Assembly (NCBI RefSeq): GCF_013373795.3
Contig: NZ_CP088022.1
Location: forward strand, 682,001-746,000
DNA: 64,000 nucleotides
Source of the DNA: Bradyrhizobium quebecense
GTDB lineage: Bacteria > Pseudomonadota > Alphaproteobacteria > Rhizobiales > Xanthobacteraceae
Direction: 5' to 3'
A program made the translations under genes and the position numbers. Of the stretch, positions 10,036 to 35,334 are shown one piece after another. The first letter of the stretch is position 1. The number at the start of each line of letters is the position of its first letter. Under the pieces are notes generated by a model. It was not told the DNA's origin, searched no databases, and saw only the letters and a program-made list of their open reading frames with translations.

Positions 10036-10133
10036 CTGGTGCATCTCCGCGCCAGTTTTGGATCACGAGCCGTAGCCATCGCCTGGCGCCTTCGCCGGCC
10101 GGATTCTTGACGTTCGGTTGCGCGCCGACGCCC

Positions 10134-10367
10134 CTAGTGCCGCGTTATGCCCCGGTTGAGACTGACCTGAAACAGCGGCCCTTGGTCCGTGCGGATCTCG
10201 AACGCCAACAAACTGTGTTTGTCCAACGGCGGGTTGTCTTTCGCCATGCTGAGCAATGACTGCATCGCTTCGTGGGCAGCAGTCTCCTCGTCGCGCAGCT
10301 CGATACCCTGCCTGTCGGCATAGAGTTCCTCGCCGTTGCGGATGTCGAAATAATAGCGGGTTGCCAA
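10134..10367 (-). CDS. DUF6894-like small protein, TTG start
   Basis: A 77-aa protein beginning ATRYYFDIRNGEELYADRQG, followed by LRDEETAAHEAMQSL and a C-terminal FEIRTDQGPLFQVSL strand. This is the pattern of the small DUF6894 proteins abundant in Bradyrhizobium, whose function is unknown. The start is probably TTG 10367, because AGGGAG lies six bases upstream and family members begin at this point. The longer ATG frame to 10445 adds 26 residues of arginine-rich, non-conserved sequence. Confidence 0.72.
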   Translation of the reverse strand: MATRYYFDIRNGEELYADRQGIELRDEETAAHEAMQSLLSMAKDNPPLDKHSLLAFEIRTDQGPLFQVSLNRGITRH

Positions 10368-18956: not shown

Positions 18957-21181
18957 AACCTCTTGCTTCCCGCCAGCCCTTCGTCGCGCACGATCGTCTC
19001 AAGGCCGTTGGCGAGCAGACGTCCCAGCCATTGGTGTCCATGGACAGAGAAATGCGCATCGTCCGCATATTGGAGCGGTTCATGTCCTGCAACCGAGCCG
19101 TCAGGGGTGGGTGCCTGAATGCAGCTGATTCCAGCCTCCTTGCAGAGTGCTGAAAAATTCTGCAACTCCTGCTCAATGCCCATGGGAACGGTTCGCTGAT
19201 CCGGCAGGGTTATCTTGCTGGCGCATGTCGTGGATTTGCGACAGTTTGCCTGGTCAAGAGCTGTTAACATCGCAATATGGGTCCGCGGGAAATCACTTTT
19301 CAATTTCTTGATGATCGCCAGCAGCAGATCGAATGATGCCTTTGCCTCCGGAATAAAGTCTTCGCGTGGAATCGAGAACGCTTGGTACATAGGTAGACCC
19401 GGGAGCAGCGGGCTTGGATCAGGCGCGACCGCATCGAGCGCCCACACCGCGTCCCAATTCCGGAATGTAAGTTGGCCTCCCTTTTCAAAATAAAAGTTGT
19501 CGAGCGGGCTATGTTCGTAATTATAGCCGAGACTTTTCTTTATGAGAGCGGCGTTCAACTGTAGCGCGTAGGCGGCATTGTGCTCGAACACGATGATGTC
19601 GGGATCGAATCTCATGCCGTAGTCGCGTATGGCTCTGTAGTTTGCGCCAAGATTTCCGTTGTCTCGCCCCGCCGAGATTACTTCGACACAGCGCCCCATC
19701 TTGATGCCTAGCTCTGACTCGGCAACGAGATTGAATTTTTCACCAGGTTTGACCTGCAGTGAAACGAGACCGCTTCCGCCAACAACAAAGATACGCAAAC
19801 AGCGATCTCTGTTTTCAGATACTCGGTCTCGATCCAGTTGCCCGAAATTGTTGGCGAAACTGATCCCGGCAAATTCCTGGACAGAACCTCCGCCGGGCCA
19901 GCTCGTAACGCGATGCGGCGCGTATCGATAATAGCTGGGGACGCCTTCGACCGTAGCAAAGCCCCCCTCAAGCTTGACCGCCTTTGGATTGGGAGGCAAG
20001 TGCGCTGGATTGGGGAATTCTGGTCCCACGGGGATCGTGACATGGATTTGGCCTACCGGGAAAAGCCAACGCCCGGAGCTCGCATAATACTCAACTCCTC
20101 TTAAACGAAATCGGAGCGAGACGGGCTGGTTTGGTGGCAAGTCCGTAACTCCAAAGCCATTGTCGAGCGAAAGCTCAACATGGCGTCGGCGGCCATCCTC
20201 AAACACCAGCTCCAGTGACGATCCAGGTTCAGGTGCCGCCCCGGTTATCCGGCCATAAATACTTGCCGCTTCGGATGGATCAGAGATTGTTCCACTCTTC
20301 GTGAACGTTATGGCGCGAACCGCAAAAGCGGTATTCGTCATTCCCTCAATAGTCAGGATCCAACGACGAATGTGATGATCCTGCCCGCTACTCAATAGTG
20401 CATCGTGAAGTTCGCGCGGAACCGATCCAACCAGACTATGGTGTGCGGTCTCAGTCAGCGATAGGTGTGTCCCATTCGCGATACTCGCATCGACACCTTC
20501 CGGCTCATTGCCGCCTGCGGGCGCGGCTTGCGAAAGCCTGTCATCCCCCAATCGAGATTGCCACACAAAGACACGATGATCGTCGAGTGCCACTGCAATC
20601 GAGATCTGTCCCGCGTCGAGCGTATCGCTCGACAGTTCGACATTGATTTGATCAACATCTGCCGGCTCCGAACGATCGGGAGACCAAATCAGGCGCGCAA
20701 CTTGCTGCTCGGAGGTCAGGATTGCAGCATCAACACGAATCGGACCAATACGGCGTTGGGTAAAGACACCACCATACACTTCTACAAGGCCGGCCTTTTG
20801 ATACAGATCGACGGGATCTAGGAAAGCCAACCTTTCGTTGGCACCACTTTGCGACTTCGCTGCACTTTGGGAGTTCGCTACGGAAAGCTTTTCGCTTGCA
20901 GCCAAACGCTCGAAGCGAAATTGTAGCGCTGCCAGATCATTTGCGAGACTACCGGCCTTCTCCGATTGTGCTTTAGCTGGAGCGAGTTGTGCTTTAACTG
21001 CAGCGAGTTCCTTGGAGATTCCTTCGATCCTGGCGCCCTGCTCAATTTGCACATCGTGGATGCCCGTAATCACATTTTTGATGCGCAACCATTGATGCTT
21101 TGCAATGGGGAATCCAACGGCGCCCACAAGGGCCACAGCCACCACAAGGGTGACGATCCCGATCGTGTTCGAACGCTTCAT
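18953..21181 (-). CDS. Membrane-anchored SGNH-hydrolase-like protein (copy A)
   Basis: A 742-aa protein with one N-terminal membrane helix (IGIVTLVVAVALVGAVGFPI) and then a coiled coil (IEGISKELAAVKAQLAPAKA). Next come two beta-rich regions, the second including SIYGRITGAAPEPGSSLELVF, and a C-terminal SGNH-type domain. The hydrolase blocks read FVVGGSGLVSLQ (nucleophile Ser in GGS rather than GDS), SAGRDNGNLG, and DDAHFSVHGHQWL near the end (D-x-x-H dyad). The topology puts the catalytic part outside the membrane. It is coupled by ATGA to the downstream gene and has a paralogue at 31678. The start at ATG 21181 is chosen because GGGGAAG precedes it; the frame is open to 21247. Likely an acyltransferase or esterase on a surface polymer (inference). 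Confidence 0.72.
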   Translation of the reverse strand: MKRSNTIGIVTLVVAVALVGAVGFPIAKHQWLRIKNVITGIHDVQIEQGARIEGISKELAAVKAQLAPAKAQSEKAGSLANDLAALQFRFERLAASEKLSVANSQSAAKSQSGANERLAFLDPVDLYQKAGLVEVYGGVFTQRRIGPIRVDAAILTSEQQVARLIWSPDRSEPADVDQINVELSSDTLDAGQISIAVALDDHRVFVWQSRLGDDRLSQAAPAGGNEPEGVDASIANGTHLSLTETAHHSLVGSVPRELHDALLSSGQDHHIRRWILTIEGMTNTAFAVRAITFTKSGTISDPSEAASIYGRITGAAPEPGSSLELVFEDGRRRHVELSLDNGFGVTDLPPNQPVSLRFRLRGVEYYASSGRWLFPVGQIHVTIPVGPEFPNPAHLPPNPKAVKLEGGFATVEGVPSYYRYAPHRVTSWPGGGSVQEFAGISFANNFGQLDRDRVSENRDRCLRIFVVGGSGLVSLQVKPGEKFNLVAESELGIKMGRCVEVISAGRDNGNLGANYRAIRDYGMRFDPDIIVFEHNAAYALQLNAALIKKSLGYNYEHSPLDNFYFEKGGQLTFRNWDAVWALDAVAPDPSPLLPGLPMYQAFSIPREDFIPEAKASFDLLLAIIKKLKSDFPRTHIAMLTALDQANCRKSTTCASKITLPDQRTVPMGIEQELQNFSALCKEAGISCIQAPTPDGSVAGHEPLQYADDAHFSVHGHQWLGRLLANGLETIVRDEGLAGSKRF

Positions 21182-21343
21182 CTTCCCCAACCCTGGAGAC
21201 ACCAAGCTAACCGGAAGCGAATGCCATCGGTCGGCCTTATTGAACATCTTTTATGTGTTTAAGCCGACGCTACAAACGTGACAAGGGACTTGACACACCC
21301 CCGGCCATCAGAGAGATCTGGCCGCAACCTACGAGCGATTGAA

Positions 21344-21836: not shown

Positions 21837-23732
21837 TCAATCGACGGTGCCCGCACGCTTGATAGCCATCGGCACATCTTTGGGTTGGTAGTTGATGAGT
21901 TCAAGCGACCACACGGAGCTGCCATCCGGCTTCGTCTCCACCTGGGCAAAGCCAAGTTTTCGGTAGTGGTCGGCCACCATATCGTTTCGGCCACTCGGGC
22001 GGTAGATACCGATAAGCTCCTTGCCGCCCGATTGCTGGACCCGCGCAACAAGTTCGTTCAGGACGGCCTGTTCAACCCCGCGCCCCAACACCCTGCAGCT
22101 CATCAGCCATGTGTCCACCGTCCAGCGAGCGCCATCCGCTCGTGCAATAATGACGCTAATCATGCCGTTGTCGCCGTAAGAATCGGCCAAGCGTACTTGA
22201 TAGGTCAGTACGTCTGAATTGCCGCCCAGTTGCTCGATATCGGCCTCGGTATAGCGCCGCGTCGTGAGATTAAATTGATTGGATTTGTTAATGAGCTGCG
22301 TGATCCGGCTACGACCGGCGTTGTCGAAGGGGCCGATCGTCATCACCATGTTCAGCGACTTCAAATATGAATTCAGGTCGCGGGCCTGGCTCAGCAACGA
22401 TGCCCGTTGCGCATTGGCCTGGTATTGCGCCACGCGCTGACGATCTTCGTCCAAAAACGCTACCGCTTCAAAATAACCTGCGCCCATCACGTAATGCGGA
22501 TACAGCGCTGGATCTTCGCCCAGCTCAGGTACAGCAACCTGGGGAAGGGCTTGTCGAACCTGGCCGCGTTCCACCGGGTTGTCGTCGACAAAGACCAGAG
22601 CATCGAGGCCTATATTCAGTGCTTTTGCTACCGCTTCAAGATTACTCGCCTTGTCGGTCCAGTTGGCCTGAAAGACGGAAACATGTTCCTCCCGCAACAA
22701 CATTTCTGGATGTTCGGAAAAGGCGGAGCGAGCGACGCGCTCGTCGTTCTTGGAGCTGATCGCGAGCATAATTCCACGATCGCGAAGGTCGAGCGCCATT
22801 TGCTGAACGGCAAGAAACGCCTCGCCCTCGGCCGAACCCTGTCCAAGCACGATACCGTCCAGGCCGTCATCGCCGATCACGCCTCCCCACAGGGTATTGT
22901 CGAGATCGAGCACAAGACATTTGCGCGACTTGCCCATGAGCGCGCCGATAATCCGTGCACAATAGTCCGCATAGATCGGTACATATTGCTGCGCGAATGG
23001 AAGCTTCGCCATATGCCATTGAACGGCATTGAACCAATTCTGAATGCCGAGATTCTGCGCAAGGCCAGAGACGTCAAATATCACGTCGGGACTTTGACGA
23101 AGCGTCTCACCAATATCCTGATTGAAGCGCTGGATTCGTCCGCGTTGGGTTAGCTCAAGTTTCGCGTCCAGGCTTCCGAACAGTTGTTCCGGCGGGCAGG
23201 CGACGGTTTGGAAAATGAGTGTTCCTTTGTACCGTTGCCTGAAAGCATCGCGCAGCGTGTTGAAATAAGCTACGGCATTTTCGACGCTGCCTGTTATTCC
23301 AAACTGCAGGTCTTCGTAAGCCCGATGATCCAGCGCCAACAGAATCGCATTCGGCTCCGACCTAATGACCTTGGAGCCGGATTCCGTCGCAGCCTGCATC
23401 ACCTGGTTGAACTCTGCTTCGACGATGCGAAGGTCCACGCCATATCGCAATGCGCTTGCGCATAGCGACGGTGCGATCAATTTGGTCGTGGCATTGCTGA
23501 CCAGGCCCAGCTTGAATGGCTGCAAGCCGGCAATCTGCCCGCCCTGCTTTTCGCGTACCTCACCCAACGTCCGTGCCAAAACGTTCAACTGGCTCTCATT
23601 GAGCGAGTGCTGCGACAACGCCCGCAACGCGTTGGCCCCATTTGCCGGGGCGCCATCGATCTCACGGCACAATCGCCTGAAGCTCTCAGGCGCGGGCGGG
23701 AGCCAGGGCAGTAAGGATAGGTCGAAATTCAT
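21837..23732 (-). CDS. FkbH-type HAD-IIIC family protein
   Basis: A 631-aa protein with the FkbH architecture: an N-terminal SGNH-like region (about residues 70-260), a HAD-superfamily IIIC domain and a C-terminal GNAT domain. HAD motifs are VLDLDNTLWGGVIGDDG (nucleophile and acid D276/D278), AISSKND and FVDDNPVER. The GNAT part has YRPSGRNDMVADHYRKLGF. Characterised FkbH-like proteins take 1,3-bisphosphoglycerate, remove phosphate and load the glyceryl group onto an acyl carrier protein. An ACP is encoded three genes upstream on the same strand. It starts 7 bases after the SDR stop and is the last gene of the core operon. Confidence 0.88.
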   Translation of the reverse strand: MNFDLSLLPWLPPAPESFRRLCREIDGAPANGANALRALSQHSLNESQLNVLARTLGEVREKQGGQIAGLQPFKLGLVSNATTKLIAPSLCASALRYGVDLRIVEAEFNQVMQAATESGSKVIRSEPNAILLALDHRAYEDLQFGITGSVENAVAYFNTLRDAFRQRYKGTLIFQTVACPPEQLFGSLDAKLELTQRGRIQRFNQDIGETLRQSPDVIFDVSGLAQNLGIQNWFNAVQWHMAKLPFAQQYVPIYADYCARIIGALMGKSRKCLVLDLDNTLWGGVIGDDGLDGIVLGQGSAEGEAFLAVQQMALDLRDRGIMLAISSKNDERVARSAFSEHPEMLLREEHVSVFQANWTDKASNLEAVAKALNIGLDALVFVDDNPVERGQVRQALPQVAVPELGEDPALYPHYVMGAGYFEAVAFLDEDRQRVAQYQANAQRASLLSQARDLNSYLKSLNMVMTIGPFDNAGRSRITQLINKSNQFNLTTRRYTEADIEQLGGNSDVLTYQVRLADSYGDNGMISVIIARADGARWTVDTWLMSCRVLGRGVEQAVLNELVARVQQSGGKELIGIYRPSGRNDMVADHYRKLGFAQVETKPDGSSVWSLELINYQPKDVPMAIKRAGTVD

Positions 23733-23739
23733 GGCAGGC

Positions 23740-24438
23740 TCACTTGATTGCGCTCAGCGCGAGACGATCAACGATTTCAACGGCGACATCCTCGGGCTTC
23801 GTAAATGCACCTTGCAGGCGCAGTTGGTCGAGAAAGCGCTCGTCGAAGACTTTCAGCATATCGGTCTCGGTAAATCCTGGCATAACCGCGGTCACGCGGA
23901 GCCAGGGAAATTCTGAATTTAGCTGCGCTATAACACCGAGAAGGCCGAATTTCGAGATGTTGTAGGCGCCCATGCTGCTCATTACCTTCGGAAGAGCGGA
24001 TGCGGCCTCCGGGACCCCGATTGCCCCGGTCAACACGGCGGCGACGGATCCGGCCTTTCGGGGCCTGAAAAACTGCCGGACCAGCCCGGCTAACAGGTAT
24101 TGCGGGCCGACTACATTTGCTGTCCAGAACAGGGAATGATCCGCAGCAGAAATCTTGCCGAACGGAGCAATCACGGGGGGCGGAGAAGCTGCGAGAACCG
24201 CGCCGACAACGGGGCGGCCGTCCTTGGCTAGCAGCGCGATGCCATGATCGATCGATGACGGGTCGGCCATGTCAAAGGCAATTGACAGTCCCCCGCACGC
24301 TTCCGCGATCGCGCGCGCCTCCTCGCTTTTATGCCGACGATGTCCAACGACCGGCACCAGTCCCTGGTTGCCGAGTTGTCGTGCGACACATCGACCAATC
24401 CCGCCTGTAGCGCCCGTAATGACAACAAGACCGCTCAC
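23740..24438 (-). CDS. Short-chain dehydrogenase/reductase
   Basis: An NAD(P)-dependent SDR of 232 aa. It has the Rossmann motif TGATGGIGRCVARQL at residues 8-22, a VVGAVLAASPPPVIAPF strand, and the catalytic YNISK preceded by SSMGA. These are intact catalytic residues. In this operon it probably reduces a keto group of the ACP-bound cargo or oxidises a hydroxyl of it; which of the two cannot be read from sequence. It lies between the MaoC-like gene (77-base gap) and fkbH (7-base gap). Confidence 0.87.
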   Translation of the reverse strand: MSGLVVITGATGGIGRCVARQLGNQGLVPVVGHRRHKSEEARAIAEACGGLSIAFDMADPSSIDHGIALLAKDGRPVVGAVLAASPPPVIAPFGKISAADHSLFWTANVVGPQYLLAGLVRQFFRPRKAGSVAAVLTGAIGVPEAASALPKVMSSMGAYNISKFGLLGVIAQLNSEFPWLRVTAVMPGFTETDMLKVFDERFLDQLRLQGAFTKPEDVAVEIVDRLALSAIK

Positions 24439-24515: not shown

Positions 24516-24947
24516 CTATGAGAGATGCAGCGTTGCCAAAGCGCTGGCCGTCGCGATGGTGCGCTCACCGGACGCTACCTTTATCTTAAGCGACAGGCTA
24601 CGTGCGGCTTCTGAATAGTGCGTGACCTGAGCAAAAATGTGCGCGGCCTCTCCGACATATAGCGGTTCGCGAAAGTCGATCTTCAGCGAACTCCAGATGC
24701 CGGCGCTTCCCGGCAGTCGCATACCGATAATCCTGGAAATCTGGGCGACAATCATAGCGCCATAAACGACAGCCCCCTTAAGGCCGCGGCCACGCGCAAA
24801 TTCCGGATCAAGATGCAGGGGATTGAAGTCACCTGAAATGCTCGCGAACGCCTGTTGCTCCGTTTCGCCGACAACGAAATCAAATTCGGCCGTCGCGGAG
24901 CTAAGCTCGGCTATGTCAACGAGACTGATCGGTGAATCCGTCTTCAA
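24516..24947 (-). CDS. MaoC-like hotdog-fold dehydratase/hydratase
   Basis: A 143-aa single-hotdog protein with the hydratase-2 active-site layout: ASISGDFNPLHLDPEFARG (catalytic Asp and His), then GAVVYGAMIVAQISRIIG. Family members hydrate or dehydrate 2-enoyl/3-hydroxyacyl thioesters on CoA or ACP. The gene follows the ACP gene after a single base and so is tightly coupled to it. Together with the SDR it could adjust the oxidation state of the acyl cargo. Confidence 0.85.
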   Translation of the reverse strand: MKTDSPISLVDIAELSSATAEFDFVVGETEQQAFASISGDFNPLHLDPEFARGRGLKGAVVYGAMIVAQISRIIGMRLPGSAGIWSSLKIDFREPLYVGEAAHIFAQVTHYSEAARSLSLKIKVASGERTIATASALATLHLS

Positions 24948-24948
24948 C

Positions 24949-25194
24949 TTATCGGCCGTCCTTTTTAATGATGCTTTCGACCACCTGGCCGACGTTTTCG
25001 AACGATGATACCTCGGCGGCCGTGAAGCGGACGTGAAATGCCTGCTCGAGCGCTACGACGAGACGAATGTGGGCCAGGCTGTCCCAGCCATCGACATCAG
25101 CCGCGACCGTCGTTGGCTTAATGACAATGCCGTCATCATCGAAGACGTCGGCGAAAACCGGCTTCATGCGTTCATAGATTTCCGCCTCTGTCAT
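24949..25194 (-). CDS. Acyl carrier protein
   Basis: An 81-aa acidic four-helix ACP. The phosphopantetheine site is DVDGWDSLAHIRLVVALEQ with Ser39. Helix 1 is EIYERMKPVFADVFDDD. This is not the housekeeping AcpP (which has DSLD); it resembles the dedicated carriers found beside FkbH proteins. It is the likely donor of the acyl cargo to the MBOAT protein, equivalent in role to DltC. It lies 103 bases downstream of the KAS III-like gene and 1 base before the MaoC-like gene. Confidence 0.9.
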   Translation of the reverse strand: MTEAEIYERMKPVFADVFDDDGIVIKPTTVAADVDGWDSLAHIRLVVALEQAFHVRFTAAEVSSFENVGQVVESIIKKDGR

Positions 25195-25297: not shown

Positions 25298-26311
25298 TCA
25301 CGCCGGTGTTCGAAACAGCAGGCCGCCCCATTGTGCGGCAAAAGCAGGAGAGGCTACCATCAACCATGCGCCGGCGGGCGGCTGCCGACGTTCGAGGTAT
25401 TGTCGAATCGCAAAAATCGGATCTACGCCGCCGAAATGGGCGAATCGGAAGTCTGTTTGAAGACGCGTCAACAGTTCGCGATGTTCGCTAAAAAGAATGG
25501 GAACGCGGTTTTTCCCGGTCGAAGGCAAAAATATCGCCTCGATATCTTGCTGCGTCAAACCTTGCTGCGCAAGAAGCGCGTCCGTAACCGCAGCGAAATG
25601 CAGCTGTTCGCCGCGAACATAGTTGATCTGTGCCTCGGCATTCTCGAAATGAACCTTGATCAGGTGGTCGTCAGCACTTGGTTCACCGCCGGGCGCGTCG
25701 CCGAAATCGATGCGCATCGCTCCCCAGTCTTCATTACTCGACGACTCAGAATAGCCAGCGACTTCGAGGCCGGGACCCTGGCTTGCCGTCAGGACAATCG
25801 CCGCCGCGGCGTCCCCCCAAAAAAACGCACCGTGATTCATATTTCTGGTGTGAGACGACGCGCGACAACTGGTAACGACCATAATGTCGCCTCGGTCAGG
25901 ATCTGCTGCGAGCAGTCGCACCGCCAGATCAATTCCTCGGAGAACGCCGACACAGCCCTGAGCCAGATTAAGGCATTCCGCCTTGCTCGATCCAAGCGCA
26001 GCCCGGACGGCAACGGCCGGAATTTCCAAACCGTAAGATGTAATCAGTGAGGGCGCCGAGATCACCATGCGGATATCGTCCGGTGCAATCTGGCATTGCC
26101 TCAGCGCATCACGGCCCGCGTGCACCATAAGCGCCGTTGAGTCCTCGGTAGAAATATGCGTAATCTGTTGCCCGAGGCGCGGAAGTCGCTTGGCCTCATC
26201 AGCCGTCAGAGGCAGCGTCAAGATCTCCACCGGCTCGCCCGGAAAGTGAAACCCAAACCCTCGGATCCGGATTCGCGGTCGATTCTCGGCCCGTTCATTC
26301 ATGCTTGCCAT
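25298..26311 (-). CDS. KAS III-like (FabH-like) protein with altered catalytic residues
   Basis: A 337-aa thiolase-fold protein of the 3-oxoacyl-ACP synthase III group. The nucleophile is present (NLAQGCVGVLRG, Cys120), as is the GDAAAAIVL motif. Where FabH has the PHQANxR histidine this protein reads FLPSTGKNR (Ser264), and where FabH has the Asn of GNTSAA it reads FAHFGGVDPIF (His292 or nearby). So the Cys is kept, but the His/Asn pair needed for decarboxylative condensation is not seen. KAS III proteins with changed triads can act as acyltransferases, which would fit an ACP-linked cargo. The ATG overlaps the stop of the SGNH gene by TGATG. Confidence 0.83.
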   Translation of the reverse strand: MASMNERAENRPRIRIRGFGFHFPGEPVEILTLPLTADEAKRLPRLGQQITHISTEDSTALMVHAGRDALRQCQIAPDDIRMVISAPSLITSYGLEIPAVAVRAALGSSKAECLNLAQGCVGVLRGIDLAVRLLAADPDRGDIMVVTSCRASSHTRNMNHGAFFWGDAAAAIVLTASQGPGLEVAGYSESSSNEDWGAMRIDFGDAPGGEPSADDHLIKVHFENAEAQINYVRGEQLHFAAVTDALLAQQGLTQQDIEAIFLPSTGKNRVPILFSEHRELLTRLQTDFRFAHFGGVDPIFAIRQYLERRQPPAGAWLMVASPAFAAQWGGLLFRTPA

Positions 26312-27441
26312 CAGGGCTCCCTCCGCAGCTGCGGGACGGATTGGCTTAGGCCGCTCTCAACGATATTTCTGGCGACGATTGCGTTCCCCGCGTCATTTAG
26401 ATGACCGTAGTCGAGATAGTACTCCTTGCCGATGGCGGGGAGGGGCGGCAGGAACATAATTCCGCGATTCTGGTAGGGCAGGAAAATCGCCGTAAGCGCG
26501 TCCTGCAACTTCTCATAATGCTGCGCATCCATCAGTTCGGCGAGTTGGCCCTTTTCTTCTGTCGCATAGAAAAATACAGCGCATTGCGCATTCGACGCCA
26601 GGCCATCAAGCGTTCGCTTCAATGCGGCGATCTGAGGGTTGTCATCTGTAAGGGTGACCGCGCCATATCTGTTCTTTGCCTTTATCGTCAGCAAGATATC
26701 ATCGAGAGGATCGGCTTCCGCCGGGGGTCTTCCTAGTCGGCGATCCAGCCGATCGCGCAAACGCCTTATCACGCCGGAAGGCTCTCCGTCGAAAACGCGC
26801 CACTGAACAAAATCGCGCATCCGGTAAAGCCGCCAATGACTGAGCGCGAAGTCCTGCAGCGTGGTTTCCGTCCGCGACGTCCACGTCCGGCGTGTATCGT
26901 CGTCACGCAAATTAAAGGAGCTGTCGATAACCATGGTCGAGAGCCACGGCCGACTGTATCGATTGCTTTCCTGTGAAAAGTCGGTTGAAAAGGCGCGAAG
27001 ACTAATATCCGCGACGATACAATCAGGTTTGAGCGGCGAGAGTAGCCGCACGACCTGTTCAACATCGGCCGGCAAGCCGCCATTCATGGCAAGGTTCATG
27101 ATCGAAAGTGGCTGTTGAGGAAACCTCTCGTGCAGGATCTGTCCGACGTGCGCGGGAATGGTGTGCTGCCGCCAGTTTGCGTCGCCGGCTTCCTCCATGC
27201 GGCGACCGTAGACCACGGAGTCGCCCACGAATGCGATGCGACGTCCCTTTAGTTCCCGGAAATAATCCAGCTTCGCGTAAAGCGTGGCGGGTGTCTGGAT
27301 GTCGACGGCATCTGCCAGAAAAGTAGTCGTCTTGGTGGCGTACCCGATCGCCGCGTCAATCGCTACAAAGGCAATCAGTACAGCGAGCAGCAGCCGTTGC
27401 AGACTTGGCGGAGAAGCTGTCTTCATTGGATCCGCCGGCAT
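26311..27441 (-). CDS. SGNH-hydrolase-type acyltransferase partner of the MBOAT protein
   Basis: A 376-aa protein with one N-terminal membrane anchor (LLLAVLIAFVAIDAAIGY) and an external SGNH/GDSL domain. Block I is AFVGDSVVYG (Ser75), block III NLAMNGGLPADVEQV, and the terminal dyad DYGHLNDAGN (Asp344/His347). This layout matches the second transferase of MBOAT systems (DltD, AlgX/AlgJ type), which takes the acyl group and puts it on the polymer. Start and stop are joined by 1-nt TGATG overlaps to the microprotein upstream and the KAS III-like gene downstream. Polymer substrate unknown. Confidence 0.82.
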   Translation of the reverse strand: MPADPMKTASPPSLQRLLLAVLIAFVAIDAAIGYATKTTTFLADAVDIQTPATLYAKLDYFRELKGRRIAFVGDSVVYGRRMEEAGDANWRQHTIPAHVGQILHERFPQQPLSIMNLAMNGGLPADVEQVVRLLSPLKPDCIVADISLRAFSTDFSQESNRYSRPWLSTMVIDSSFNLRDDDTRRTWTSRTETTLQDFALSHWRLYRMRDFVQWRVFDGEPSGVIRRLRDRLDRRLGRPPAEADPLDDILLTIKAKNRYGAVTLTDDNPQIAALKRTLDGLASNAQCAVFFYATEEKGQLAELMDAQHYEKLQDALTAIFLPYQNRGIMFLPPLPAIGKEYYLDYGHLNDAGNAIVARNIVESGLSQSVPQLRREP

Positions 27442-27554
27442 CAGAAATTCTGGTAGGCAAAGATCGCCAGTTTCGAGTTCATGAAATACAGGATGATGAC
27501 GATCTTCACGACGATAACGGCGACTTGCAGGATCGTTGGTTGCAATGATCGCAT
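27441..27554 (-). CDS. DltX-like membrane microprotein with C-terminal FAYQNF shuttle motif
   Basis: A 37-aa protein. It starts MRSLQPTILQ, has one membrane helix at about residues 8-24 and ends IFAYQNF. The ATG at 27554 shares one base with the MBOAT stop (TAATG), and its TGA shares one base with the next ATG (TGATG), so it is almost certainly translated. In Gram-positive dlt operons DltX is a one-helix microprotein whose terminal hexapeptide F-x-Y-x-x-F presents a tyrosine that carries the acyl group from DltB to DltD. FAYQNF fits this pattern exactly, with Tyr34 as the candidate carrier. The MBOAT protein here lacks such a motif at its own C-terminus. The functional assignment is inference from motif, topology and gene order. 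Confidence 0.85.
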   Translation of the reverse strand: MRSLQPTILQVAVIVVKIVIILYFMNSKLAIFAYQNF

Positions 27555-28756
27555 TAGTGCCACCCGACCAGCCGTTGATAGGTCATGATCGCGTCAGGTA
27601 GCGACCCCTGCCACCAGATCATTGTTAGCGACACGAAGGCGTAGGTCGAAATTCGCCCCGTCCACAGACTGAGTGCTGTCTGCGACGCCGCATACCGTAC
27701 GCCACTTGCTTTTGCCCTGGCGCGGGCAAATTCACGTCGGATCTGGATTGCAAACAACACGGCGCCCTGGAGTATTCCGAATATCAGGAACCCGATGGTC
27801 GTCCCGTGCCACATCGCCACGAGTACCATGGTCACGACATAGATCGACGCGATCGCGTACATCTGCTTCTCGCGTGGTATGTTGACAAAGACGGCTTTGC
27901 TGAGCGGCGAAAAAACGTAATCCTGGATAACGGAGCCGAGCGACATGTGCCAGCGGCCCCAGAATTCCTGCAAATTACGTGAGGCGAATGGTGCGTTAAA
28001 GTTCTCTACGATCCGGAAACCCATCAGCGCAGATACTCCGATGACGATATCGCAATAGCCGACGAAATCGAGATACAGCAGTGCCAGCGTGGAAATCGCG
28101 CCAATCCAGAGAACGGGAGTTGAGAGGTCATTTGCGTGCGGCATCATTGAAAAGATGCCGAGATCCATGAAGTTGTCGGCAATGACAAACTTTTTGATAA
28201 AACCGTTGAGCACCCGGTTCAGGGCATCGAAGCTTGCTGGCTCAAGCGGCACGGGCTGCTCGGTTGTTTCATTGAACCGATGAAATCGCTCAATCGGGCC
28301 CGCCAGAAGTGTCGGAAAAAAGATCATGTAGTTGAGGAACGTCAGCGGACTCAGCCGGTCGCCGGGAGCGACTTCGAGCACAAACGTGATCGCCCGAAAT
28401 ACGATATAGGAAATGCCGATAAGCTTTACCGGATGGGCATGAAATGGATTGACGGCGCCGAGAAGGTTGGGATCCTTCAACAGAAACAGGGCGGACCAAA
28501 ACAGCGCGACAATAAGAAACGACGTGGCAATCGACCAGAAGCTTGCATTCGCAGCCTTGCTCACGCCCAACAGATAAACGATGGCCAGAAATGCGGCCAG
28601 CAGCGCTAGCTGGTCCCATTCCGTGATGAAGGTTGCGAGGAAATAGAGGCTCAGCAGCAGGACCACGAGCTCGCGCATCAGCCGCGGCGCACATAAGCGG
28701 CAGGCCAGAATCGCCGCAAACGTGATGAGGATGAAGCTGAACGAGTTTAGAGCCAT
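27554..28756 (-). CDS. MBOAT family O-acyltransferase
   Basis: A 400-aa multispanning membrane protein of the DltB/AlgI family. The two diagnostic sites are intact: NLQEFWGRWHMSLGSVI (His270) and LVAMWHGTTIGF (His317, catalytic). It also has the FFPTLLAGPIERFHRF segment. Such proteins move an acyl group from a cytosolic thioester to an acceptor on the outer face. It is first in the core operon. Its stop overlaps the start of the DltX-like microprotein by one base. The protein ends TYQRLVGWH, with no acyl-shuttle hexapeptide, which agrees with the shuttle being on the separate microprotein. Confidence 0.93.
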   Translation of the reverse strand: MALNSFSFILITFAAILACRLCAPRLMRELVVLLLSLYFLATFITEWDQLALLAAFLAIVYLLGVSKAANASFWSIATSFLIVALFWSALFLLKDPNLLGAVNPFHAHPVKLIGISYIVFRAITFVLEVAPGDRLSPLTFLNYMIFFPTLLAGPIERFHRFNETTEQPVPLEPASFDALNRVLNGFIKKFVIADNFMDLGIFSMMPHANDLSTPVLWIGAISTLALLYLDFVGYCDIVIGVSALMGFRIVENFNAPFASRNLQEFWGRWHMSLGSVIQDYVFSPLSKAVFVNIPREKQMYAIASIYVVTMVLVAMWHGTTIGFLIFGILQGAVLFAIQIRREFARARAKASGVRYAASQTALSLWTGRISTYAFVSLTMIWWQGSLPDAIMTYQRLVGWH

Positions 28757-29017: not shown

Positions 29018-31681
29018 CTAATGCCTGCACTCGTTTATCGCGATGTCGAGTTCCGCTTCGTTTTTGACAACCTCGATTTTACGGCCTTGCTGCGGGAAGC
29101 ACGATAATCCGCTGGAACCGAGCGCGCGGATCGTAAGCTGCTCTTCCCGCCTTCGGTGGTAGAAGAAGTAGTATCCATCCAGGTCTGTTGTGGTGTCGAC
29201 GACTTCGCCGGACGAGGAGGTGAGTTGTACCGGCACCAGGGCCAGCGGAGCGCTTCCGTCGCGCGTGACGCGGCCGGCAATGAGCTTTCCGCCGTCCGGA
29301 GCCTCGCCGTTACCTGAGGGACGCAGCGCCCTGAGGTCGCGAATGTCGATGGCTTCGCCGGGAGCCGCATTAGCCAGCGAGATCCGCACCTCCCGAACCC
29401 GTCCGAGCGGCAATGGCGGCCGCCGCCAGTCTTGCTGGTTTGCCAGTGGCTTTGGCCAGGCGAGACGCGCGACGTCAAGCGTGTGCGTTCGCCACTGGTC
29501 CGGGACCGTCAATGGGGGGACCACCCAGACGCTCGAGCCTTCGTGGTCTGCTGGCGGCTGTGCCGATTCCAGAGCCGTTACAACGCCGCCGTCCTCCATC
29601 AGCATTTCGATTTTCAAAGCGGCATCGGAAGATGCGGCTGAACTACCGGCCGTCGATAAACGTTTCCGGATTGCAAAATGCAAATGACTGGTGTTCCAGA
29701 GATCGAGGTTCCAGGGCTCGAAAACGATCTCGGCGTGCCCCGCAGCATCCGCCTCGAGGCTGACGAAGTCGTTGGCCGGCGTCGCGTCGACAAACTTGCC
29801 GGAGCGGATTTCGACATCGCCGCGGTCATGCAACGCAACTTTTCCGATAATCGGCGTTGGGGCGTTATCGCCGACAATCGTAATCGATGGCTTGCCGGTC
29901 TCATCGGGTGGGTTGCGGGTAAAAGTATCGACGGATTTGCCCCCGACGTCGACCGAAGCCTGCTCTGGATCGCTAACATAGAGTGTAAGCCCATGCAGGT
30001 CGCGCGTTCCTGCCTTCAAATCCGGGACAGTGACATGCGTGACGGGATCTTCCCAAGGCGTGATTTCGACTGAAGATCCGCCCGCGCCGACCTTGAGGTT
30101 GGGCTTAATTCCCGCCTGCATGATCTGGTAGCCAAACCAGGTATTCGCAGGCGGCGACCACGGGCGCCGATCGAGGCTCACGCTTCCGTCAAAATTATAG
30201 ACCTGGTTGGCGAGCTTCCTGATCCACTTCAGTGTTTTAGGTGTGAGCGGTTCTTCCTGCGAGGCCTCAAAATCCGAGCCGCCTGACCCGAAGTGCGTAT
30301 ACCAGAAATGCCTTACTTTCTGCCCCTTGTTGATCAGATAAAGGCTGTCGCTCAACAGTACCGGCAGCGCATCGCCTTGAGAGATATCGCAAGTGGGTGC
30401 GCAATACAGGGAACGGCGATCTTCTTCTGACATTTCCGGCGCGGTCAATCGCATACCGTCCGCAAAAGCTTGGACACTCGAAGGGTCGAAGTTAAGTATT
30501 GATGTTCGTCTAACATCGTAGAGGCCGTTGTAAGTCGTGGTCAAATTCGTAAGGTCGGAAGCTGTGCTATCAGAAACCACGAAGCTATACTGGTCCGTTC
30601 CGCGGGCAGGGAAGTATGACCAGACGGCTCGGACAGAGAGTTCACGGAGCAAGTCGGAGTAATACGCATACGTGTCTATGCGATCGGCCATCGCTTCACG
30701 GTGAACCACTGTTGCGGGGTCGGTAAAGAAGGTGCCAGGCGTTCGTGGGAGATCGAGTGCTGCGCCTTCAATTCCAAACCCTGAGATCAGGGTGTTTCCA
30801 CCGTGCGATGTCGTTATCTGGGGCCGAATATTCCAGCGCTTCAGCCATGGGATTTCGTCCAGCACGATCTGTCGGCTGAAATGATCACGCTCCACCCGGG
30901 TGAGGCTTACGGGACAGCCCCCCGCGCAAGAGGGAGCGATGAAGTCTACCCGATCAATAAGCATTGGATTGATTGCCAGTGGCGTCGATCCGGAATTGGC
31001 GGACGGAACGATGGCTTCGACGATCCATCCGAGTTTGCCGACTCTGACCAGGACCTTTTTTCCCCGGCCGATAGAGCCCGAATTGAAAGACATGCTTTTG
31101 CCCTGGGTATCGTGCAGGGCGATCGTCAAATCGGCTGGCGGCTCTGCGGAAAAATAGAATCGAACACTTTGGGCCTCTTGACCGGAGATAGCGACGGGAA
31201 CCTTGGGTAGTTCTTGACTGGTTCGGACGGCAGACAGCGCAAGGGGGGGATCAATCTGATTTTGTAGTTGTAAAACTCCGTCCTCGCTCCAACCGTGGAA
31301 ATGATCGATGTTACCACGGTGCCATTGGCGGAGTAACAACGCGAAGGTGGGTTCGCTGCCGGCGCCTGAATTGCGTCGATTTAGCCGCCCTGGTCCCAAG
31401 AAAAGTGCTGACGTCAGGGGAGTGCCGCCCTGCGGCCACAGCGAGTCCGATATCGTCAAGCCGAGATCTTCGTTAAAGACCCGATGGATCGCTGCCCCGT
31501 GCCACGGACGCTGCTCATCGACATCGCTGATGAAGCTCACGACGTGGGAAAATGGATACGGAAGCGAACGAACGACAGGATCGGGCTCTGCTGCCTTCGC
31601 CGCGATCGGAAGCAGCGCAATGCAGAGCAAGAGCCGGGTGCTTACCCGAGCGGCGGCTTGGGTTGGTCGCAATGTCCTCAT
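29018..31681 (-). CDS. Large secreted deacetylase-like protein with C-terminal regulatory-like domain (copy B)
   Basis: A protein of 887 aa with a signal peptide (RLLLCIALLPIAAKAAEP), paralogous to the product of the gene at 16335. Shared motifs in the same order are SFISDVDEQRPWHGAAIHR, FNEDLGLTISDSLW, HRGNIDHFHGWSEDG, QITTSHGGNTL, an RHFWYTHFGSGG block and a C-terminal GRVTRDGSAPLALVPVQL ... LDGYYFFYHR domain. The conserved Asp and His residues suggest a metal-dependent carbohydrate deacetylase or lyase, which is inference. I placed the start at ATG 31681 because it gives a proper signal peptide and overlaps the upstream stop by ATGA, exactly as in the other pair. Confidence 0.72.
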   Translation of the reverse strand: MRTLRPTQAAARVSTRLLLCIALLPIAAKAAEPDPVVRSLPYPFSHVVSFISDVDEQRPWHGAAIHRVFNEDLGLTISDSLWPQGGTPLTSALFLGPGRLNRRNSGAGSEPTFALLLRQWHRGNIDHFHGWSEDGVLQLQNQIDPPLALSAVRTSQELPKVPVAISGQEAQSVRFYFSAEPPADLTIALHDTQGKSMSFNSGSIGRGKKVLVRVGKLGWIVEAIVPSANSGSTPLAINPMLIDRVDFIAPSCAGGCPVSLTRVERDHFSRQIVLDEIPWLKRWNIRPQITTSHGGNTLISGFGIEGAALDLPRTPGTFFTDPATVVHREAMADRIDTYAYYSDLLRELSVRAVWSYFPARGTDQYSFVVSDSTASDLTNLTTTYNGLYDVRRTSILNFDPSSVQAFADGMRLTAPEMSEEDRRSLYCAPTCDISQGDALPVLLSDSLYLINKGQKVRHFWYTHFGSGGSDFEASQEEPLTPKTLKWIRKLANQVYNFDGSVSLDRRPWSPPANTWFGYQIMQAGIKPNLKVGAGGSSVEITPWEDPVTHVTVPDLKAGTRDLHGLTLYVSDPEQASVDVGGKSVDTFTRNPPDETGKPSITIVGDNAPTPIIGKVALHDRGDVEIRSGKFVDATPANDFVSLEADAAGHAEIVFEPWNLDLWNTSHLHFAIRKRLSTAGSSAASSDAALKIEMLMEDGGVVTALESAQPPADHEGSSVWVVPPLTVPDQWRTHTLDVARLAWPKPLANQQDWRRPPLPLGRVREVRISLANAAPGEAIDIRDLRALRPSGNGEAPDGGKLIAGRVTRDGSAPLALVPVQLTSSSGEVVDTTTDLDGYYFFYHRRREEQLTIRALGSSGLSCFPQQGRKIEVVKNEAELDIAINECRH

Positions 31682-33855
31682 CTTGAAGCCGCACGCAAGA
31701 TATCCACCAACGGCCCGGTCAACTGCTGAGCCAGCCATTGATGACCGAGCGGCGAATAGTGACCGTCGAATTCGAATGTCAGCAGGTTTGGCATCTCGCC
31801 ATAGGCATCCGAGAAGGTCGGATTTATGCACTGATAGTCGTTTTTCTGGCAGTATTCGGTCACGTCTTTCGCATAGATTTTTGCGCCGGCGGGGACAGTC
31901 CTGCCATCCGCAAGCGTCAATGTCGTCTCACAGCCTTTGCGGCATTGGGCCTGGTCGATGCCGGTGTGGAAGATGAATTTCTGGCCAGGATGATGCTGCT
32001 CGATGTACCTGACTATCTCTGTCCAGTACCGAAAAGCCTCCTTGCCGGGATCGGGCATCACGTCAAAAGGCACACTCAACGTGTAGCCGAACGGAATGCC
32101 CTTGACGTACTCCGGATGGGTTGGCTTGCTCATAAACACCGGATAGACGGGTGATGCCGCACGAAAAGTGAAGGATCCGCTCTTGTCATAGTAGAAGTTC
32201 GGCAAGGCGCTATTTTCCGGATCGAAGCCAAGGCCATCGTGCAGCATTTGCGGGTTGACCTGATAGACCAGACCGGAAGCCATCGACACCAGCGTGTGAT
32301 CGACATTGAACTTAGACGTATAGTCACGAATGCGAGGATAATTCGTACCAAGGTCGCCATTGTCGGCGCCGGCCGAAATTACTTCGACGCACTTCCCGAG
32401 CGCGATGCCGAGCGATTCCTCCAGGATGATATTGAATTTCTCGAAGGCGCGAACCTGAAGCGCGACCATGTCGCTGCCGCCCGTGCTCGCCAGACGAACG
32501 CAATGATCAGGATTGTCGAAAAAACGGTCGCTATCTTGATAGCCGTGATTGTTGGTGAACGTCGTTGAATCGTATTCCTGCACCTGGCTTCCGCCGGGCC
32601 AATATTGACGTGAATGGGGTTCATAGAGAGCGGAGTCTGGCGAAGGCACGCGCGGTCCCACAAATCGCGCTGTCTTTGGATCGGGAGCGTGTCCGTCGCT
32701 ATTGAAGTAGTGTGGTCTCATGTCGATCGAAATATCGTCCCGACCGTAACCCGGCACGAACCACCTTCCGAGAGTCGCGAAGTGCTCCAACTGCGGATAC
32801 CGCACGCGCAGCGAGACCGGTTGCGCGGGATCGATGCCTTTAAAGGCAAAGCCGCCATCGGCCCCGAGCGTTTGTTTGGTCACCCGGCCGGAATCGTCAA
32901 GCAGTTCGATCGGCGTTCCCGGGGGAATATCTGCTCCCGACACGCGCCCCGATAACGTGACGCCAATGGTGGTGGCGGCGGGCATTGGCCGGATCAACGC
33001 CAGACGCTTGAAGCGTACCGTTGTCCCGGCTGCGCCATTTATTTTCACAAACCACTGCTGGATCTGGTCGGGCTGCCCATTGCGAAGCTGCAGCATAAGA
33101 TTTGCCGGCAGTGGAGCAATCACGTTGTTTGCCGACGGATGAGGTTCTCCAATTGAGTTCGCCGCATTCGCTTTTGCGACGATGTCGGCTGGAAGCAACG
33201 GAGGTAGAAGCCCTGTTGGAGCGAGGGTGGGCGGTCCAAGATTGATCGTGTAGGCGCTGGCCTGACCGTCCTTGCCAATAAAGCCAATGGTGAGCTTTCC
33301 CGCGGTGGGAACCGCTGCGAAATCCACCTCCAGATGCGTCGCATCGCGGGCTGGACTAAAATCCGGTGACCAGATGACCCAGGCTTCGTCGTGCGTGATT
33401 TCGAGATCGGCCTCACTGACCCGAATTGCTCCGGTGCGGCGTTCGCGCAGGCTTGCTCCATAGATCTCGAAAAGACCATTCTTGCGATACGGACCGACCC
33501 GGTCGAACAACGCAAACACCGGGGCGCCGACGCCGCGGTAATCGCTGACAAGGGGGGGGCGATCGGAGTTGCTTCCGAAATTTGTCGCCAATGACAGCGA
33601 TTCAAGTGCCTTGATACGCGCGTCAAGAGCCCCGATGCTCGCGATAAGCTGCGCGTTTCCAGCCGGCTGCCCTTCAACGACAGCCGTCTTCTGAGGCGAG
33701 GGCGGCACCATCGCCGGGAGTTTCTGAGCCAACATTCGATCAATGCGAGTGTTGATATACTTTCGTGTCAGCTCATAGCCGCTCGCAACGACGACGCAAC
33801 CCACGACGATCAATATCGTCGTTACAATATTCTTTTTTACCTGGGTCATTTTCAT
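31678..33855 (-). CDS. Membrane-anchored SGNH-hydrolase-like protein (copy B)
   Basis: A 725-aa paralogue of the product at 18953. It has one N-terminal membrane helix (IVTTILIVVGCVVVASGYEL), a short coiled-coil-like part (SIGALDARIKALESLSLA), two beta-rich regions and a C-terminal SGNH-like domain. Its blocks are LASTGGSDMVALQV, SAGADNGDLG and EFDGHYSPLGHQWLAQQL. It keeps the GGS rather than GDS nucleophile turn, like copy A, so this is a lineage feature and not decay. The stop overlaps the start of the deacetylase-like gene by ATGA. It is probably first in its own two-gene transcript. Confidence 0.72.
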   Translation of the reverse strand: MKMTQVKKNIVTTILIVVGCVVVASGYELTRKYINTRIDRMLAQKLPAMVPPSPQKTAVVEGQPAGNAQLIASIGALDARIKALESLSLATNFGSNSDRPPLVSDYRGVGAPVFALFDRVGPYRKNGLFEIYGASLRERRTGAIRVSEADLEITHDEAWVIWSPDFSPARDATHLEVDFAAVPTAGKLTIGFIGKDGQASAYTINLGPPTLAPTGLLPPLLPADIVAKANAANSIGEPHPSANNVIAPLPANLMLQLRNGQPDQIQQWFVKINGAAGTTVRFKRLALIRPMPAATTIGVTLSGRVSGADIPPGTPIELLDDSGRVTKQTLGADGGFAFKGIDPAQPVSLRVRYPQLEHFATLGRWFVPGYGRDDISIDMRPHYFNSDGHAPDPKTARFVGPRVPSPDSALYEPHSRQYWPGGSQVQEYDSTTFTNNHGYQDSDRFFDNPDHCVRLASTGGSDMVALQVRAFEKFNIILEESLGIALGKCVEVISAGADNGDLGTNYPRIRDYTSKFNVDHTLVSMASGLVYQVNPQMLHDGLGFDPENSALPNFYYDKSGSFTFRAASPVYPVFMSKPTHPEYVKGIPFGYTLSVPFDVMPDPGKEAFRYWTEIVRYIEQHHPGQKFIFHTGIDQAQCRKGCETTLTLADGRTVPAGAKIYAKDVTEYCQKNDYQCINPTFSDAYGEMPNLLTFEFDGHYSPLGHQWLAQQLTGPLVDILRAASR

Positions 33856-34521: not shown

Positions 34522-35334
34522 GTGGTCGATATCGGCGCCAACCCGATCGACGTTCCGCCCTATGTGCCGCTGCTGCAGAAGCGGCTATGCCGGCTGTTCG
34601 GCTTCGAGCCGCAGCCCGGCGCGTTGGCCGAGCTCAATGCCCGCAAGAGCGAGCTCGAAACCTATCTGCCCTATGTCATCGGCAACGGCGAGCAGGCCCG
34701 GCTTCGCGTCTGTGCTGCGCCGGGGATGACCAGCCTGCTGGAGCTTGATCCGGTGATGCTGAAGCACTTTCAGGGCTTCAGCGAGTGGGTCCGCATCATC
34801 GCCGACAGCAAGATCGCGACCCACCGGCTCGATGATATCGGCGAGATCGATGCGCTGGACTATCTCAAGATCGACGTACAGGGCTCGGAGCTTGCGATCT
34901 TCCAGAACGGGCGGCGGCGGCTCGCGGAGGCGGTCGTCGTCCAGACCGAGGTCTCGTTTCTCCCGCTGTACAAGCAGCAGCCGGTGTTCGGCGAGATCGA
35001 CCTCGAGCTGCGCAGCCAGGGCTTCATTCCTCATGCCCTGATGGCGATCAACAAGCGCATGATCTGGCCGATGCGCGGCGTCAATCCCTATGAGGCGTTC
35101 AATCAGCTGCTCGAGGCCGACGCTGTCTATGTCCGCGATTTCACCAAGGCCGATGCGATGAGCTCCGGGCAGCTCAAGCATCTCGCGCTGATCGCCCATC
35201 ACTGCTACGGCTCCTTCGATCTCGCGGCGATCTGCATCCAGCATTTGCTCAACCGCGATGCGATCGTCCCGCAGGCGGGGAGCCGCTATTTCGAGCTCGC
35301 CGCGGCGCACCGCGCCGCCGCCAAGACCGGCTGA
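34522..35334 (+). CDS. FkbM family methyltransferase
   Basis: An SAM-dependent O-methyltransferase of the FkbM type, 270 aa from the GTG at 34522. Motif I is VVDIGANPIDV, followed by CRLFGFEPQPGALAEL (ribose-binding acid), then MTSLLELD, the post-motif DYLKIDVQGSELAIF and VVVQTEVSFLPLY. Such enzymes often methylate sugars of polysaccharides. The same frame is open upstream (DVDPLSALLVPERLTA looks family-like) without an ATG, while an ATG at 34443 is in another frame, so the true start may be lost by a 1-nt shift. The gene lies just outside the acylation island. Confidence 0.82.
   Translation: MVDIGANPIDVPPYVPLLQKRLCRLFGFEPQPGALAELNARKSELETYLPYVIGNGEQARLRVCAAPGMTSLLELDPVMLKHFQGFSEWVRIIADSKIATHRLDDIGEIDALDYLKIDVQGSELAIFQNGRRRLAEAVVVQTEVSFLPLYKQQPVFGEIDLELRSQGFIPHALMAINKRMIWPMRGVNPYEAFNQLLEADAVYVRDFTKADAMSSGQLKHLALIAHHCYGSFDLAAICIQHLLNRDAIVPQAGSRYFELAAAHRAAAKTG

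Follow-up and report, generated by a model that had tools for sequence, protein, structure and literature searches.

A conserved 37-residue microprotein as a candidate tyrosine acyl shuttle in a non-Dlt MBOAT/SGNH cluster of Bradyrhizobium quebecense

The closest described systems are MBOAT/SGNH pathways that acylate envelope polymers. In PatA and in DltX, acylation of the motif tyrosine has been reported (PMC12148441, 2025). According to the same paper, MBOAT/SGNH pathways outside Dlt have neither a carrier protein nor a DltX-like microprotein. PMC5541007 (2017) mentions DltX proteins of Gram-negative species that share the topology while their sequences show no similarity. A free shuttle in Gram-negative bacteria is already known for dlt operons. 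Here we analyse a stretch of 64,000 nucleotides from Bradyrhizobium quebecense (contig NZ_CP088022.1, positions 682,001 to 746,000), called the window below, where a 37-codon frame lies between an MBOAT gene and an SGNH gene. The three genes are:

27554..28756, minus strand: MBOAT O-acyltransferase, 400 amino acids, DltB-like (PF03062, 75.5 bits; TIGR04091, 182.7 bits, cut-off 375)
27441..27554, minus strand: 37-amino-acid microprotein, putative acyl shuttle (Tyr34), with one predicted helix and C-terminal FAYQNF
26311..27441, minus strand: SGNH/GDSL-fold protein, 376 amino acids, with an N-terminal helix and invariant S75 (GDS) and D344/H347

The microprotein frame (27441-27554, minus strand) translates to MRSLQPTILQVAVIVVKIVIILYFMNSKLAIFAYQNF. 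It is joined to the MBOAT gene by TAATG and to the SGNH gene by TGATG, with one shared base each. The joins and the FAYQNF end were described correctly in the original prediction, whose coordinates 27441-28756 span the microprotein and the MBOAT. An alternative GTG start at 27563, three codons upstream, would give 40 amino acids. The frame encodes a single strongly hydrophobic stretch, assigned as a helix by hydropathy only. Among closed frames of at least 20 amino acids on both strands of the window it is the only one ending in FxYxxF, with or without the helix filter. Frames satisfying a loose motif-plus-helix definition were observed on this strand in none of 5000 shuffles (a crude two-base-block shuffle of the local 400 bases). 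Eighty other MBOAT loci, 1.23 Mb in total, contained 11 such frames outside MBOATs, and two of these, in loci L059 and L085, are situated near motif-less MBOATs.

We searched 265 genomes of the window's genus for relatives of the MBOAT (E up to 1e-45) and found them in seven, its own included. The frame directly follows the MBOAT gene in this genome and in the six others, ending in FAYQNF or FVYQNF, and the microprotein was also found in G1364, a genome of the same class and a different family. Conservation of the frame and of its terminal motif, the test set beforehand, was found in all eight whole-genome loci of this MBOAT type, window included. The copy in G446 (L115/L137) escapes the frame filter, its stop-to-stop frame exceeding 300 amino acids, and is present nonetheless. 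Where the MBOATs are 42-46% identical to that of the window, the microprotein start still overlaps the stop of the MBOAT gene, as ATGA or TGATG, and the SGNH gene starts a few bases downstream of the microprotein, with no overlap. Between any two of five microprotein copies of the same genus there are two to nine silent codon changes, with one replacement at the most. A protein search with eight of the microproteins retrieved 17 database members, the window's own among them, with ends F[A/V]YQNF. For four members the longest contig is as long as that of an MBOAT database match (7461, 9687, 5056 and 55578), so that the two genes may lie on one contig there. Those bearing a name are called 'hypothetical protein', and one of them, from Bradyrhizobium sp. 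USDA 4341, is identical to the copy in the same-genus genome locus L135. The prediction that gene callers skip this frame is thus only partly right. Since all eight loci carry the frame, 17 members are in the databases and the changes are mostly silent, the 37-codon frame is a conserved real gene.

In an alignment of 18 microprotein rows, of which two are identical, K17, I21, F32, Y34, Q35, N36 and F37 are invariant, and all 18 have the C-terminal FxYxxF motif. Lys17 (window positions 27504-27506) lies inside the hydrophobic stretch in all 18 rows and is absent from microproteins of the Klebsiella type and from that of Obscuribacterales. In the order sample, one of 397 genomes had a match, the window's own. 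No genome out of 392 from Planctomycetes passed E 1e-80, a threshold too strict, or a sample too sparse, to show anything. A plasmid search returned 136 records, all below 60% identity, and at most 34.3% among the 40 listed. The GTDB contig scan contained no close relative among the matches listed, the best having 36% identity, and a PDB sequence search with the microprotein gave no match.

The MBOAT itself ends in TYQRLVGWH and has no C-terminal shuttle motif, which agrees with the original prediction. Its W316-H317 corresponds to a Trp-His pair that is invariant in 44 aligned relatives. DltB is nearest to it in sequence and fold, and both proteins stop at about the same place. In the SGNH protein, S75, D344 and H347 (the GDS serine and DxxH) do not vary in eight aligned rows, and the predicted structure matches GDSL enzymes and DltD in fold.

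The other genes of the cluster are:

25298..26311, minus strand: ketoacyl-ACP (acyl carrier protein) synthase III-like protein (PF08545, 29 bits; window's sub-clade only)
24949..25194, minus strand: ACP with conserved Asp-Ser attachment site, S39 (PF00550, 24.6 bits, cut-off 20.8)
24516..24947, minus strand: MaoC-like hydratase/dehydratase (PF01575; relatives in seven other loci)
23740..24438, minus strand: short-chain dehydrogenase, ketoreductase-like (PF00106; window's sub-clade only)
21837..23732, minus strand: FkbH-type HAD protein, candidate maker of acyl-ACP (TIGR01686, 296 bits over cut-off; PF21211)

Genes for ACP, MaoC and FkbH accompany the microprotein in 8 of 8 loci (the window and seven long loci). 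The seven other loci have relatives of FkbH, and that of L137 is in two pieces. When window-type ACPs (four rows) are aligned with DltC (two rows), the Asp-Ser site is kept. Genes for the synthase III-like protein and the short-chain dehydrogenase were found in two of the eight loci only, the window and G429. The synthase III-like protein (25298-26311) retains a cysteine; by eye, the usual histidine and asparagine of FabH seem to be missing.

We consider it likely, by analogy, that the microprotein is a one-helix membrane peptide which, like DltX, takes up an acyl group from the MBOAT on its Tyr34 and delivers it to the SGNH protein, within a carrier-fed pathway. The analogy is to DltX and PatA, because a tyrosine ester has been reported there (PMC12148441). 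FkbH would load an acyl group of the C3 hydroxyacid type on the ACP, and MaoC would tailor it, in the window possibly together with the synthase III-like protein and the short-chain dehydrogenase. The acyl-ACP would then dock at the cytoplasmic side of the MBOAT. The C-terminus of the microprotein would lie outside, and His317 may activate Tyr34, to which the acyl group would pass where the tunnel opens to the periplasm. Finally, Ser75 of the SGNH protein would accept the acyl group and esterify an envelope polymer. Judged from the gene set, the acyl group is probably made by FkbH. An FkbH domain is described as probably responsible for glycerate loading in cyanobacterial peptides (PMC10143770), and for this reason a glycerate-derived acyl group seems the likeliest cargo.

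Several observations weigh against such a shuttle. For the SGNH protein, neither a PDB sequence match nor a Pfam match to DltD was found, and its structural model is mediocre (predicted local distance difference test score, pLDDT, 68). The DltX profile (PF12459) did not match the window frame or its relatives P0122, P0124 and P0125 at E up to 10; the Firmicutes DltX controls from L145 and L146 matched it with 74 and 58 bits. A profile of the microprotein aligned with the tail of fused MBOATs (hhalign) end-to-end and in register, and weakly (E 0.097). No SGNH partner was identified in L085 and L147, two other loci considered below. In L032 (Myxococcales), where a motif-less MBOAT stands by a frame with the SGNH pattern, no free motif frame was found in the 19-kb locus; therefore, a motif-less MBOAT is not always accompanied by a shuttle.

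One possibility is that the microprotein carries no acyl group and serves the MBOAT purely in its structure or assembly, as a subunit. Small membrane subunits are common in larger enzymes, and packing could be the role of the invariant Lys17 of the helix. However, conservation is strictest at the C-terminal FxYQNF, Tyr34 included, and the window MBOAT is without a motif of its own. Moreover, it is the equivalent tyrosine whose acylation has been reported for PatA and DltX (PMC12148441). We regard a purely structural role as improbable.

Another explanation is an ordinary Dlt system of D-alanylation with a divergent DltX. Indeed, the window MBOAT is nearest to DltB; the ACP, SGNH protein and microprotein are all present, as they are in Gram-negative dlt operons; and a tree without the C-terminal tail groups the window clade with the Dlt MBOATs, although weakly (83/68). 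On the other hand, no DltA-type ligase was found within 6 kb on the MBOAT strand in the seven long loci, and the genome as a whole has none above the cut-off: the best candidate has 257 bits against 560 and lies inside a 2002-amino-acid frame elsewhere, and the window contains no listed match. The DltD profile had no match in the genome, while two controls matched. The DltB score of the MBOAT is about half of the curated TIGR04091 threshold, FkbH and MaoC are present in all eight loci, and in both trees the window MBOATs group together, separately from the Dlt clade. Thus a Dlt system is an unlikely explanation. Because neither DltA nor DltD passes in the genome and the DltX profile is without a match, the cluster, judged by its gene content, is not a Dlt locus.

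The origin of the free state was considered on two MBOAT trees. The first comprised 52 chosen rows with the columns of the C-terminal tail kept and L133 scored as having no shuttle; the second had 51 rows, with the tail left out and L133 scored as free. Both have several long branches, some of them meeting outside the window clade, and the root is unknown. In the second tree the window clade is supported by 100/99, and a branch, also of 100/99, separates it from a group of 37 rows, made up of L032, L059 and all but one of the 36 fused MBOATs. The Dlt MBOATs form their own clade (98/92), which may, at the weak support of 83/68, be the nearest kin of the window clade; the position of the window clade outside the Dlt group is less clear here than in the first tree. 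The window clade and the other free-shuttle MBOATs, except L059, are split from the fused group with the tail in or out. The free or fused state changes twice on the tree, whether the tail is kept or left out. A recent split of a fused MBOAT tail by a frameshift, of the kind seen in the broken fused MBOAT of L016 in the family sample, is therefore very improbable: the 100/99 branch separates the window clade from the large fused group tail in and out, and eight loci share the same state, with the MBOAT stop and microprotein start overlapping as TAATG, TGATG or ATGA. As to a chance frame, for which its shortness speaks, this reading is already refuted by the conservation of the protein sequence with silent changes, the 17 database members and the uniqueness of the frame in the window.

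The shuttle state was also analysed in other loci, using the best-scoring MBOAT frame in each of 80 loci among the matches listed in the GTDB contig scan. The frame ends in the motif in 74 loci, lacks it according to the filter in five, and is not closed in one (L035). In the family sample, 27 of 28 closed MBOAT frames are fused to the motif. The fused state is hence the usual one, as had been supposed for Gram-negative systems. One MBOAT scored as motif-less, that of L033, ends in SVYGTF and looks fused. The 74 fused loci were also examined for a free motif-plus-helix frame on the MBOAT strand, and none was observed up to a distance of 2.5 kb.

Two of the five loci without the motif by filter have a free motif frame, L085 (Melainabacteria) and L059 (Opitutaceae). 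The gene set of L085 consists of FkbH, ACP, a 370-amino-acid frame, the microprotein and the MBOAT. The 370-amino-acid frame (L085 5821-6933, Obscuribacterales), between the ACP and microprotein genes, has one DxxHL near its end. It occupies the place of the SGNH gene, and has no Pfam match and no GDS pattern. In L036 (Bacteriovorax), a 34-amino-acid frame (10039-10143) right after the MBOAT stop is followed by ACP; it ends in FQYEF, the motif being one residue shorter, and fails the FxYxxF filter. L036, L033 and L032 are the other three of the five. The alphaproteobacterial locus L147 (FkbH-ACP-MBOAT) contains, on the same strand and 4.4 kb upstream, a 55-amino-acid frame that ends in FEYRVF. 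Finally, the dlt operons of L130 (a Klebsiella electrica plasmid), L149 and L150 encode DltX proteins of 39-40 amino acids ending in FEYQ[K/Q]F (L130 5575-5697, L149 10009-10131, L150 10239-10361). The L149 and L150 MBOATs are 89% and 70% identical to that of L130, and DltD of the L130 operon was identified by Pfam. The Klebsiella electrica DltX is annotated as a hypothetical protein and has no match among the Pfam and NCBIfam models.

The rule that a carrier protein goes with a free shuttle and coenzyme A (CoA) with a fused one was considered and rejected. The counts point in its favour: an ACP gene is found within 6 kb on the MBOAT strand for only one of the 74 fused MBOATs of the listed GTDB loci. 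The exceptions are L061 and L148, L087, where a second fused MBOAT has FkbH and ACP within 4 kb, and L059, with a free frame and no ACP found. We do not claim the rule because of these exceptions, because the tree shows only two changes of state, and because independent pairs do not support it.

The window was predicted to represent a distinct variant, and this stands in part. A separate, conserved FxYxxF microprotein does occur in a non-Dlt setting with ACP, MaoC and FkbH, but a separate Gram-negative DltX was already known, from PMC5541007 and from L130, L149 and L150. Because of this earlier publication, the new part is a non-Dlt pathway having both a carrier and a free shuttle. In the open-access literature searched, a free shuttle with a carrier protein and without DltA was not described, and no report linking FkbH to an MBOAT/SGNH pair of the envelope came up. 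As the window-type loci have the carrier and the microprotein and lack DltA, the rule given in PMC12148441 would need an exception. More tentatively, these loci might form a third line of trans-membrane acylation, in which an acyl group built by FkbH and MaoC, rather than D-alanine or acetyl-CoA, passes from a dedicated ACP to a DltB-like MBOAT, then to a free tyrosine shuttle and to an SGNH transferase. In that case, carrier with free shuttle would stand beside CoA with fused shuttle as a second general solution, spread over Alphaproteobacteria, Bdellovibrionota and Melainabacteria. The principle of the tyrosine shuttle would extend to acyl groups beyond D-alanine and acetate, and a shuttle encoded by a separate gene of 37 residues is easy to test and can be altered without touching either enzyme.

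The acylation genes of the window are flanked by two copies of a pair of large proteins, all on the minus strand: 31678-33855 with 29018-31831, and 18953-21247 with 16335-18956. The pairs are of 725 and 937 and of 764 and 873 amino acids, and the copies are about 32-34% identical to each other (in G429). By eye, the 725- and 764-amino-acid proteins have an SGNH-like block V; the 873- and 937-amino-acid proteins have a carboxypeptidase-regulatory match below the cut-off. The pair of 725 and 937 is retained in six same-genus relatives, and G1364 has only a relative of the 725/764-amino-acid protein. A gene for an FkbM-type methyltransferase (PF05050) is located near the cluster at 34522-35334 on the plus strand.

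Among the known systems, the FkbH-ACP loci L061 and L148 resemble the window in that FkbH and ACP adjoin the MBOAT. However, the motif is fused to the MBOAT there (FIYAQF, IVYKDF), and a free microprotein was not found. MBOATs of the PatA/AlgI/WssH type share the MBOAT core, the SGNH partner and the terminal tyrosine motif. Their motif is borne by extra C-terminal helices of the MBOAT (PMC12148441), whereas the window MBOAT, of 400 amino acids, lacks them. The Gram-negative DltX of L130, L149 and L150 (gene order dltD-dltX-dltB-dltA-dltC) is likewise a separate microprotein, of 39-40 amino acids, beside a motif-less MBOAT and an ACP, but these operons contain DltA, their MBOATs belong to another clade, and the helix sequence is unlike. 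The DltX of Gram-positive dlt operons (PF12459) is similarly short (about 40-50 amino acids against 37), with one helix and the C-terminal FxYxxF. It too is encoded alongside a DltB-type MBOAT, an SGNH protein (DltD) and a carrier protein, with MBOAT and SGNH present in all eight loci of the window type, and its acyl donor is carrier-bound. On the other hand, the window frame has no Pfam DltX match and no DltA or D-alanine module, and has little sequence in common with DltX beyond the terminal motif. The gene position differs as well: between MBOAT and SGNH in the window, before dltA in L145 and L146. By these comparisons, the window microprotein likely works like DltX, and we do not file it as a member of the DltX family.
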